Below are positions 31,517-41,566 of a stretch of 64,000 bases of DNA, piece after piece. Position 1 is the first letter of the stretch, and each line of letters starts with the position of its first letter. A program made the translations under genes and the position numbers. Origin of the DNA: Methylocystis echinoides (GTDB lineage Bacteria; Pseudomonadota; Alphaproteobacteria; Rhizobiales; Beijerinckiaceae). Location: positions 4,128,001-4,192,000 of the forward strand of contig NZ_BSEC01000001.1 in NCBI RefSeq assembly GCF_027923385.1, given 5' to 3'. The notes below the pieces were generated by a model, which did not search any database, was not told where the DNA came from, and saw nothing but the letters and a program-made list of their open reading frames with translations.

Positions 31517-31591
31517 GCTGCAGTAGCTCAGTGGTAGAGCACTCCCTTGGTAAGGGAGAGGTCGAGAGTTCAATCCTCTCTTGCAGCACCA
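31517..31591 (+). tRNA. tRNA-Thr (GGT anticodon), integration target
   Basis: A complete 75-base tRNA with acceptor stem GCTGCAG, D-loop TAGCTCAGTGG, anticodon loop TTGGTAA (GGT), T-loop and encoded CCA. Its 3' half is duplicated 10 kb downstream, showing that an element inserted here and restored the tRNA. Confidence 0.96.
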
Positions 31592-31592
31592 T
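31545..31592 (+). repeat. attL: left 48-bp core of the integrated element
   Basis: The stretch from CCTTGGTAAGGG to the base after CCA is identical to 41519-41566. Sequence diverges on both sides, which defines the crossover core within the 3' half of the tRNA. Confidence 0.92.
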
Positions 31593-31699
31593 CTTTTTCC
31601 AGCAAATTCAGAGGACTTAGCGAAGCGGAAAGCGACGCTTCGCGACGCTTCGGAACAGAACAGAGCGCGAAGACCCAGAATAAGTTGGGTGAAATCAGG

Positions 31700-32005
31700 G
31701 TGGCGCGTTCACTGTCTGGTCGCGCGCCCCTCGGTCAGTCCCCCGCCGCTGAAAAAGAAAACGCCGCCCCGGCTGGTCCCCGGAACGGCGCAAAACACAA
31801 TGAGAAAGCATTCGCTTTCGACGCAAATCCTTGCCCGCGCGGCGAGCGTCTGTCAATCGCCTCGGAGCTTCGCGACCTTGCGAGGGCGCTAAGGCGCGGC
31901 CCCGGCCCGCTGCGGGCCGACCCGGAGACCGTTCTTTCGGCCAAGCATGAAGTCGCCGGCCGGCTTTGCCAGCTCGCCAAGCGGTTGGAGGCGGCCAATG
32001 TCTAA
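31700..32005 (+). CDS. Small hypothetical protein of the element
   Basis: A 101-residue frame from a GTG. The C-terminal half, GERLSIASELRDLARALRRG ... VLSAKHEVAGRLCQLAKRLE, is helical and charged. Its stop overlaps the start of the next gene by eight bases, which supports translation, but the start has only a weak ribosome site. No family is recognised. Confidence 0.45.
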   Translation: MARSLSGRAPLGQSPAAEKENAAPAGPRNGAKHNEKAFAFDANPCPRGERLSIASELRDLARALRRGPGPLRADPETVLSAKHEVAGRLCQLAKRLEAANV

Positions 32006-32960
32006 CGCCGCCGCCCTCTCCATCGTCCGTCTTCCGCGCCGCCAGCGCTTCACGTCCATCGATAATCGCATCCTCTCGGGGGGATATCTCACCTTGGAGG
32101 CGATCGGGATGCTTTCGCACCTGTTGAGCCGACCTGATGACTGGACCGTTTCAATCCAGCAGCTCGCCACGCACTTCAAATGCGGGCGCGACAAAGTGCA
32201 GCGCATCATGAACGAGTTGCGCGATGCCGGCCACGCTCGGTTGCGGGCCATTCGTGAGGATGGCCGGCTGAGGGGCAAGCGCTGGGAGATTTCCGAGGAA
32301 CGGGACGGCTCCAACGAAGCCGCGCAAGCGAAAGCGACGCAGGATTTCAGACAGCCTGAAAACCCGGTTGTCTGTGAGGGCTCAGAAAGCCTGGAAAACA
32401 GACAGCCGGAAAACCGGCCTGTCAAAAGACTAAAGAATGAATATAACAAAATACCCCCTAAATCCCCCAGCGAGGTGACGCCCGACACGGGGCCGAGCTT
32501 CGACGAATTCGAACGGGCGTATCCGTTCGGCGACGCCGACCCCTGCCAGGCCATGCGCTACTTCCGGGGGCTTCGATCCGATGACCGCCGCAAGGTGCTG
32601 GCCCATGCGCCCGGCTACGTCGCTGACCGAAAGGCGCGAGGGCTGCCGGTCGCAGCGCCGCAAACCTACCTGCGTTGTCGCATTTGGGAGGCCCAATTGG
32701 GCATTCGGAATGGTGATGCTGGCAGGACGGCGGCTCGTCCCCGAGACGCGCAGTCTCAGGGAGCTTCGATGGCTTCGCGGACGGGCAATAGCGGGATTTA
32801 TCAGTTTCCGGACGGAAAGTGGTTTCTGAGCGACGGCACGAAGAACCTCGCTGCGTGGAACGACTATGAGCGGCGCAGTGGCATTCGCAACCTGTCGCTC
32901 TACCGGCCGGACCCATGGCCGCCCGGCCACGGGCTTTCGTCCTATCACCGTGCGGCTTAG
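31998..32960 (+). CDS. Replication-type winged-helix protein of the element
   Basis: A 320-residue protein. Residues about 25-110 form a winged helix (RILSGGYLTLEAIGMLSHLL, VSIQQLATHFKCGRDKVQRI), as in phage O-like and plasmid Rep proteins. A charged linker follows, and residues about 165-220 (SFDEFERAYPFGDADPCQAM ... YLRCRIWE) match a C-terminal block seen in prophage replication proteins. It probably binds the element's origin and may recruit a host helicase. No primase or helicase motif is visible. Start ATG overlaps the preceding gene. Confidence 0.65.
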   Translation: MSNAAALSIVRLPRRQRFTSIDNRILSGGYLTLEAIGMLSHLLSRPDDWTVSIQQLATHFKCGRDKVQRIMNELRDAGHARLRAIREDGRLRGKRWEISEERDGSNEAAQAKATQDFRQPENPVVCEGSESLENRQPENRPVKRLKNEYNKIPPKSPSEVTPDTGPSFDEFERAYPFGDADPCQAMRYFRGLRSDDRRKVLAHAPGYVADRKARGLPVAAPQTYLRCRIWEAQLGIRNGDAGRTAARPRDAQSQGASMASRTGNSGIYQFPDGKWFLSDGTKNLAAWNDYERRSGIRNLSLYRPDPWPPGHGLSSYHRAA

Positions 32961-40281: not shown

Positions 40282-40652
40282 CCCTGCCGACGCTGCGCAC
40301 TCCCGAGGAGGTTGCGGCTCATTTTGGGATGAGCGTCCGCACTCTCAGCGATCACGCGCGCAAGCACGGAATTGGCACTAAGATAGGCAAAACGCGCCGT
40401 TTCACTGACGCGGATATCCTCGCCCTGATCGAGGCCGGACGATGCTCAAACTCTATCGCCGAAAACGGGACAAAAATTGGCGCATCCGCGGGACGCTCTT
40501 CAGGTGCAAGCTTGAAGAAAGCACGGGAACTGCTGACCGCCCGCAAGCTGAATTGCTCCTCACCGCCCGCATCACGGAAATCACGCAACGCCACGTCAAA
40601 GGCGCCGTGCTCGGTCATCGCCCTTCCCCGTCCTTCGCAGAGGCAGTCGTGA
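40278..40652 (+). CDS. Xis/AlpA-like helix-turn-helix protein
   Basis: A 124-residue protein. The N-terminal 55 residues are a MerR/AlpA-type DNA-binding domain (RTPEEVAAHFGMSVRTLSDH, GKTRRFTDADILALIEA). A Ser/Lys-rich tail follows and shares its last 211 bases with the integrase gene in another frame. The tail (GTKIGASAGRSSGASLKKA) resembles that of alphaproteobacterial excisionase-like proteins, which supports the long form. It should direct excision. Start GTG overlaps the portal stop. Confidence 0.78.
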   Translation: MTLPTLRTPEEVAAHFGMSVRTLSDHARKHGIGTKIGKTRRFTDADILALIEAGRCSNSIAENGTKIGASAGRSSGASLKKARELLTARKLNCSSPPASRKSRNATSKAPCSVIALPRPSQRQS

Positions 40653-41446
40653 GCTACATTGAGAAAGGAGGCGAGCGTCGCTTTTTGTTGCCTTTGCTCG
40701 ACATTTTCAGCGATCGACCCATAGACGCTATCCACCAAGAGGAAATTGACGGAGCGGCGCGCCGACTGCTTCCGGGCCGGTCCCCGGCAACCCTCAATCG
40801 CCAAATCTTTGCGCCGATGAGCGCCGTTTTGAAATCCGCCGGGGTCGAGACCAAGATCAGACGCCGCAAGGAGGTGGAGCGCGAGCCGCGATGGTTGACG
40901 CCAAAGGAGGCAAAACAGCTGGTCGACGCCTGCAACCCGTCACTGCGGCCGCTCGTGATTTTCCTGGTCTATACCGGTGCACGTGTCGGCGAGGCGCTTT
41001 GGCTCGATTGGCGATATGTGGACCTGTCTAGGGCGCACGTCGCCTTCCCAAGAACCAAGAACGGCGAGCCGAGAGGGCTCCCGCTGCATCCTGAAGCCGT
41101 CGCGGCTCTTGCCGCTCTTTCACACCGCGAAGGGGAAATCTTCAGGCGACCCGACGGCCTGCCCTATACGCGCCCCGACGACGAGGACGAAGCCGACACT
41201 TCGGCGGGAAGTCGCATCGCCCGCGCCTTTGGCGCGGCCTGCCGGAGGGCTGGGATTGAGCATTTTCGACCGCACGACTGTCGACACACTTGGGCGACCT
41301 GGCACTACCAGCAACATCGGGATTTGCTCGCGCTGAAACGGGCGGGCGGATGGAAATCCGAGGCGATGGTTTCACGCTACGCCCACGTCAATAGTGAGAA
41401 CTTGCGAGCCGAGATCGAAGCGCTGCCAAGCCTCAAAAGTGGGTGA
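40442..41446 (+). CDS. int: Tyrosine integrase of the element
   Basis: A 334-residue phage-type integrase. A core-binding domain covers about 60-135 (SFAEAVVSYIEKGG), and the catalytic domain has Arg181 (YTGARVGEA), His278-x2-Arg281 (HDCRHTW), Trp304 and the nucleophile Tyr313 (VSRYAHV). All catalytic residues are present. The N-terminal 55 residues form the arm-binding part. It recombines within the tRNA-Thr 3' half; attR is 72 bases after its stop. Confidence 0.95.
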   Translation: MLKLYRRKRDKNWRIRGTLFRCKLEESTGTADRPQAELLLTARITEITQRHVKGAVLGHRPSPSFAEAVVSYIEKGGERRFLLPLLDIFSDRPIDAIHQEEIDGAARRLLPGRSPATLNRQIFAPMSAVLKSAGVETKIRRRKEVEREPRWLTPKEAKQLVDACNPSLRPLVIFLVYTGARVGEALWLDWRYVDLSRAHVAFPRTKNGEPRGLPLHPEAVAALAALSHREGEIFRRPDGLPYTRPDDEDEADTSAGSRIARAFGAACRRAGIEHFRPHDCRHTWATWHYQQHRDLLALKRAGGWKSEAMVSRYAHVNSENLRAEIEALPSLKSG

Positions 41447-41518
41447 AATGTGGGTGTATGATCGCTGAAAAATCTGAAGCACTAAATAAAATAAGGAGTT
41501 ACATCATGCCGCATACTG

Positions 41519-41566
41519 CCTTGGTAAGGGAGAGGTCGAGAGTTCAATCCTCTCTTGCAGCACCAT
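41519..41566 (+). repeat. attR: right 48-bp core, tRNA-Thr 3' remnant
   Basis: Identical to 31545-31592. It contains the anticodon-loop end, variable loop, T-arm and CCA of tRNA-Thr without the 5' half. It marks the right end of the element; the chromosome resumes at 41567. Confidence 0.92.

Follow-up and report, generated by a model that had tools for sequence, protein, structure and literature searches.

A probable phage satellite with its own head genes and no recognizable tail genes at a tRNA-Thr gene of Methylocystis echinoides

The window analyzed here is a stretch of 64,000 nucleotides from Methylocystis echinoides (contig C1:4128001-4192000 of its 5.32-Mb genome, G000), and it carries a 9,974-bp element, measured from repeat start to repeat start, between exact 47-bp direct repeats at a tRNA-Thr(GGT) gene. 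In our reading, a phage satellite of about 10 kb, still intact, is integrated here; it would make its own head and take the connector and tail of a helper phage, and we put the probability of this reading at roughly 0.8. Genes for excision, replication initiation, the packaging motor, and the head are all present in the element, with nothing recognizable for a tail, for head-tail joining, or for lysis (Table 1). An earlier note on this DNA had listed integrase, Xis-like protein, repressor, replication-type protein, HNH, TerL, capsid, protease, and portal genes; all are present and open, the repressor with a weak match. As the same note had stated, no tail, connector, or lysis family was matched among the 13 element proteins, all of which were scanned against PHROGs and 11 also against Pfam (the Xis-like protein and the 71-aa open reading frame [ORF] were covered by PHROGs only). 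No feature of a complete tailed prophage (tail tube, tape measure, or tip) was recognized among these proteins, and a full prophage was rejected on this lack of tail genes.

The element was inserted site specifically in tRNA-Thr. An exact 47-bp attachment (att) repeat far exceeds chance, and in G114, a genome of the same genus, only about 270 bp separates the two flanks of the element at one locus, which thus has no 10-kb insert and is an empty site (among the 19 same-genus loci compared, the right flank was matched in this one and in none of the other 18). The nearest relative, L034 (portal 96% identical), is likewise inserted in a tRNA-Thr, with the same repeat. For the eight genes compared between these two elements, the ratio of nonsynonymous to synonymous substitution rates (Ka/Ks) ranged from 0.06 (portal and TerL) to 0.38 (the 227-aa protein), and these genes are under purifying selection. 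All genes of the element are open reading frames, and 4-base overlaps join capsid, protease, portal, and xis; the tight overlap claimed earlier stands for this block, whereas gaps are present elsewhere, including one of about 270 bp before position 36480. A distant 17.8-kb element of the same genus (L338, G089:C1:2984500-3004400) occupies the same tRNA-Thr site. In it the portal gene comes before protease and capsid, and it also encodes TerL, a related integrase, a TMP_3 tape measure of 1179 aa, and proteins of the head completion and gp17-like kinds; its portal is much more distant from the window portal, and it is not a closer full phage. The tRNA was the sole match of the Rfam scan, and PADLOC matched none of the five window proteins tested.

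Table 1. Features of the element and its attachment site, with positions in the window
Feature	Position	Strand	Evidence or remark
tRNA-Thr(GGT); 3' part is the attachment site	31517..31591	+	ARAGORN, Rfam RF00005
attL, 47-bp direct repeat	31546..31592	+	identical to 41520-41566
Replication initiator, HTH_36/DnaD-like	31998..32960	+	PF13730 2.1e-7; PHROG 270 (5.6e-10) and PHROG 186
HNH endonuclease	32975..33340	+	PF01844 2.3e-5; PHROG 2323 2.7e-23
Terminase large subunit (TerL)	33387..35042	+	PF20441 2.7e-37; PF03354 8e-21; PHROG 9 4.9e-140
70-aa ORF, without convincing family	35039..35251	-	scans gave none
Small helix-turn-helix (HTH; XRE-like) repressor, divergent from the rightward genes	35217..35471	-	PF01381 0.0089, weak, below cutoff
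131-aa ORF, no family	35608..36003	+	scans gave none
71-aa ORF, no family; relatives in other members	35996..36211	+	scan gave none
227-aa protein, MerR-like N-terminal winged helix	36480..37163	+	adjoins capsid gene, upstream
HK97-type major capsid protein	37248..38513	+	PF05065 1.3e-27
Prohead protease S78	38510..39058	+	PF04586 9.1e-39
Portal protein	39055..40281	+	PF04860 4.7e-93
Excisionase (Xis)-like HTH	40278..40652	+	PHROG 1840 2.9e-9
Tyrosine integrase	40442..41446	+	PF00589 9.4e-26
attR, 47-bp direct repeat	41520..41566	+	exact copy of attL

The closest relatives of the portal, capsid, and TerL lie outside tailed phages, so that the condition under which the earlier note would have given up the satellite reading does not apply. 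A search for related portals covered viral contigs and genome contigs (for the latter, the best 80 of 153), and 56 loci, some of them near-copies, had a portal at least 42% identical to that of the window element. Capsid, protease, and portal genes followed one another on one strand in 52 of these 56 loci, the others being two circularly permuted and two cut contigs. Among the 123 loci at 39% identity or less, the portal preceded protease or capsid in 104 (including L091, which is counted there only because its circle is cut inside the capsid gene), stood alone in 12, and followed the capsid in 7. The 16 hosts of genome contigs with a portal at 42% or more were, by title, without exception alphaproteobacterial, and they belong to Methylocystaceae, Rhodoblastus, Methylobacterium, Caulobacteraceae, Rhizobiales, Brevundimonas, Reyranella, Phyllobacteriaceae, Marinicaulis, Pinisolibacter, and Hyphomonadaceae or are unclassified; capsid relatives include proteins of Methylocystis sp. 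JAN1 and ATCC 49242. Direct repeats of 15 to 58 bp with one copy overlapping a tRNA were present in 19 of the 61 loci scanned (two of which are the same Rhodoblastus element), delimiting units of 9,053 to 10,765 bp, although repeats of 15 to 16 bp, taken alone, could be chance. Ten kinds of tRNA serve as att sites (Thr, two Gly, two Glu, Asp, Met, Ser, Pro, and Arg). The relatives thus form a conserved, repeatedly integrated family of 9- to 11-kb units in Alphaproteobacteria.

Terminal repeats of 98 to 127 bp close four contigs, namely, L037 (10,040 bp), L057 (10,657 bp), L061 (10,516 bp), and L091 (10,144 bp), and these could be excised circles, concatemers, or an episome. L091 comes from a cultured isolate, Methylorubrum suomiense DSM 14458. 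In L037, the place of TerL (L037:2071-4030) is taken by an AAA ATPase and an ORF weakly matching HEC-01B, which together resemble HEC-01 defense candidates. A subgroup from Marinicaulis, Caulobacteraceae, and others (L083, L084, L085, L088, and L156) has no TerL or HNH match, so its members would need a helper's terminase; the two of them that were scanned, L084 and L156, encode an AAA_25 helicase-like protein and a DUF5906 primase-like protein. The window genome itself holds a second capsid-forming element outside the window, at tRNA-Glu(CTC) (L217, G000:C1:3046038-3056449), with 15-bp repeats about 10.4 kb apart, TerL, adaptor, protease, a divergent portal, a Xis-like protein, an integrase, and a 517-aa capsid protein to which an HNH domain is joined by in-frame fusion.

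Relatives were also scanned for tail genes, alongside a phage control. Unassigned ORFs of at least 75 aa from 34 relatives numbered 201, or 185 after thinning, of which 150 were scanned and 35 left out. In Pfam, 25 of 37 families included a single tape measure and a single gp6-like connector, and PHROGs named no tail function among 25 of 67 families, taken by member count, the first member listed being the tape measure itself. When PHROGs were scanned again with 86 ORFs picked by hand (84 from relatives and 2 from the window, with the tape measure and most replication proteins left out), the structural matches in all 18 families were two head-tail adaptor models only, both matched by L041; an adaptor is therefore present in this relative, as it is in the second element of the window genome. 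The control comprised 82 of the 116 ORFs listed downstream of the portal, from 7 of 10 phage loci, and in it models of tails, connectors, or baseplates were matched 28 times, counted by member and family (Phage_TAC_11, 5; Phage_connect_1, 5; Phage_HCP, 4; HK97-gp10, 4; Phage_tail_2, 3; tape measure, 3; gp17, 2; Phage_TAC_18, 1; baseplate hub, 1). Tail genes were found in 7 of 7 sampled phage loci among the relatives at 39% or less, and the method thus detects tails where they are present.

These observations bear on the idea that the element is a decayed HK97-like prophage whose tail half was lost and whose head genes stayed intact by chance. Its genes are of phage origin, and it has TerL (46% identical to that of HK022), portal, protease, and capsid families in common with HK97/HK022-type siphophages (L220), but these differ in having a portal-protease-capsid order, TerS, adaptor, and tails in 40.8 kb. 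The constant size and gene order at ten tRNA kinds, a head order opposite to that of HK022 and the control phages, the low Ka/Ks values, the circular forms, and the separation of TerL and portal from most phage rows in the trees make such decay very improbable.

Domestication offers another account, in which the head would be derived from a gene transfer agent (GTA) or the satellite would dock onto GTA tails made by its own host. The window genome has a second head cluster (L218, G000:C1:1121001-1141000) with portal, protease, and capsid matches, which appears GTA-like, and the structure of a GTA portal, Rcc01684, is matched by the window portal at 4e-22, more weakly than two other portals are (2.4e-40 and 2.2e-39). 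The matches in L218 are to head genes, and the integrase, excisionase, att sites, and patchy location of the window element mark it as mobile. GTA membership was rejected on att sites, integrase, and mobility, and we regard the GTA account as a whole as remote.

The published systems that bear most on the element are the capsid-forming phage-inducible chromosomal islands (cf-PICIs). The element is likewise a small island with integrase and att sites, its own capsid, protease, and portal, HNH and TerL, and no recognized tail or lysis genes, so that the earlier suggestion of a shared plan applies to these parts; it does not extend to the joining genes, as cf-PICIs are described with connectors and TerS (PMC10690885) and the window element has no recognized head-tail connector. 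Since no connector was recognized and no TerS match was convincing, we do not file it as a cf-PICI member, though it would work like one. A 16-kb record from Klebsiella pneumoniae FDAARGOS_1323 (L219) is circular and listed as a plasmid; we take it from its gene list to be a cf-PICI, and it resembles the window element in its int, AlpA-like protein, primase/initiator, capsid-protease-portal order, HNH, TerL, and absence of annotated tail genes. It differs in its size, in having head closure, head-tail connector, and P27-type TerS genes, in the placement of HNH-TerS-TerL after portal and connectors, and in having capsid and TerL of other lineages. The best 80 of 350 viral-contig relatives of the L219 capsid (L222-L301) were all at least 94% identical to it.

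Other satellites show similar combinations. The Streptomyces satellites MulchRoom and MiniFlayer encode, like the window element, their own terminase, portal, and capsid, and a helper-encoded tail has been proposed for MulchRoom; as described, they differ in having linear genomes with terminal repeats, scaffolding, adapter, and TerS genes, virulent helpers, and Streptomyces hosts (PMC10690885). Vibrio satellite-plasmids (cf-PISP) are capsid forming, have no tail genes, and occur in circular form, as here, but by their description are episomal, with parA/repA, a tyrosine recombinase other than an integrase, and head-tail adapter and closure genes (PMC13230959).

Isolated phages gave at best, among the matches listed, 37% identity for the portal and 33% for the capsid (2,027 and 126 matching records, respectively, all below 60%). 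In the portal tree, 38 of 39 alphaproteobacterial satellite rows grouped together (Shimodaira-Hasegawa-like approximate likelihood ratio test [SH-aLRT], 93) and 32 of 33 phage rows lay apart; L170 and L116 had long branches. All 21 alphaproteobacterial satellite rows formed one clade in the TerL tree (SH-aLRT, 99), with the Klebsiella TerL elsewhere. In the first capsid tree (near-identical rows being thinned in this and the TerL tree), most satellites grouped together but not as one clade (5 changes, at least 4 of them forced). Two rows labeled as phages, L137 and L139, are part of the five changes; they have the satellite order and were put with the satellites in a reduced test. L037, L073, L216, and L217 have a capsid of a different lineage, indicating that capsids have been swapped among satellites. 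The reduced set left out these four and three unplaced rows (L064, L170 with its long branch, and L215 with no integrase nearby), and in it 28 satellite rows fell on one side of a branch (support, 83); forcing them together with the gammaproteobacterial rows cost 106.5 log units (approximately unbiased [AU] test, P = 1.9e-7). Published cf-PICI capsids are described as forming three clades (PMC11389934).

It is on this evidence that an ordinary cf-PICI, i.e., a member of the published family living in Alphaproteobacteria, has to be weighed, and we consider it unlikely, though a more serious contender than prophage decay. The capsid-protease-portal order is common to the window element and the 16-kb Klebsiella element, the gammaproteobacterial cf-PICI-type rows are sister to the alphaproteobacterial clade in the portal tree (SH-aLRT, 93, unstarred), and the helper-tail logic is the same. 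Against this, no connector, closure, or TerS gene was recognized in the window element, the capsids do not form one clade with the gammaproteobacterial lineage, the TerLs lie apart, and a length of about 10 kb compares with a cf-PICI average of 14 kb (PMC10803314). The new branch anticipated by the earlier note is supported by the capsid against one gammaproteobacterial cf-PICI-type lineage, but in the portal tree that lineage is sister. Judged from these trees, the alphaproteobacterial family is likely an independent radiation; the wording is no firmer because the tested capsid group was named after the first tree was seen, the gammaproteobacterial side is one narrow lineage, and cf-PICIs of Firmicutes and Actinobacteria were outside the trees.

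Under the satellite reading, a helper phage would relieve the small repressor (which has relatives in 9 of the 36 loci that reach 9 kb or more), Int and Xis would excise a circle, and the initiator would amplify it. The Xis match is limited to residues 6 to 62, and the true end of this protein is uncertain, its ORF overlapping the integrase. Capsid, protease, and portal would then form a small procapsid into which TerL with HNH packages about 10 kb, helper connectors would dock onto the satellite portal and add a helper tail, and helper lysis would free the particles. We infer that the window element uses a helper's tail. Two features beyond the earlier note are the lack of a recognizable TerS and the MerR-like protein encoded before the capsid gene. 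Neither Pfam nor PHROGs gave a convincing TerS match among the element proteins, the only matches to TerS models being weak ones of the HNH (5.7e-6) and Xis-like (0.0094) proteins. For the MerR-like protein, Foldseek gave no match at an E value of 0.001 or less, and only the winged helix was shared with the chains compared by VIA, a comparison that had no TerS chain among its rows and excludes nothing. This protein is a candidate packaging-specificity factor or capsid-operon activator, which may stand in for TerS by conferring DNA specificity on TerL or may switch on the head genes, and it could be a diverged TerS.

One relative offers a clue to the helper. The satellite of G017 (L212), 10,095 bp at tRNA-Arg(CCT) with 18-bp repeats, carries in place of HNH-TerL a lone 810-aa tape measure (L212:3686-6118; PF06791 2.8e-16, PHROG 10574 6.5e-22) that is 66% identical over 800 aa to a 794-aa tape measure in a prophage region of same-genus G177, which also has TerL, portal, and capsid matches. 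It is 36% identical to one in G146, where a distance of about 14 kb separates that tape measure from the G146 satellite. As the L212 satellite retains a single tail gene, and of a kind carried by phages in the same genus, sequence similarity points to phages with that tape measure as its helper. In the window genome, the L212 tape measure gave one weak match (E value, 1.7e-4). A resident helper there was considered and dropped, as two tape-measure families gave nothing.

Several points weigh against the satellite reading. Neither particles nor a helper nor excision has been observed, and the joint of a satellite head to a tail is unexplained without connectors. A search of the window genome for TMP_2 and PhageMin_Tail, the two families searched, found none, and no resident helper was therefore identified. 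The family is patchy, with capsids at 46% or more in 5 of 199 host-family genomes, the element's own included. A TerL match is absent in 11 of 36 relatives of at least 9 kb, some of them cut contigs, so self-packaging is not universal, and the tail scans of relatives rest on the 25 Pfam and 25 PHROG families given above.

More tentatively, and at somewhat less than even odds, we propose for the class as a whole an independent alphaproteobacterial radiation of 9 to 11 kb in which the portal docks on a helper connector and a slot behind the initiator is swappable among terminase, defense, and primase genes; in at least one member the cargo of this slot is a helper-type tape measure, so that the satellite would provide the single tail protein threading the tube, which may set tail length, tail partner, or DNA ejection from the satellite head. 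No description of an alphaproteobacterial capsid-forming satellite family was found in the open-licence literature, a search that the original cf-PICI and SatelliteFinder distribution tables lie outside, and the family is new in detail and expected in kind.

If the satellite reading is right, the strategy of an own head and a stolen tail would be widespread in Alphaproteobacteria too, with a capsid of other descent than the tested gammaproteobacterial lineage of cf-PICI type, and a satellite genome could do without connectors. The member with the tape measure gives a direct lead to which phage serves as helper. The Methylorubrum type-strain assembly with its closed 10,144-bp member would provide a small culturable test system for two questions, namely, how heads and tails of different origin recognize each other and how a small capsid size is set.

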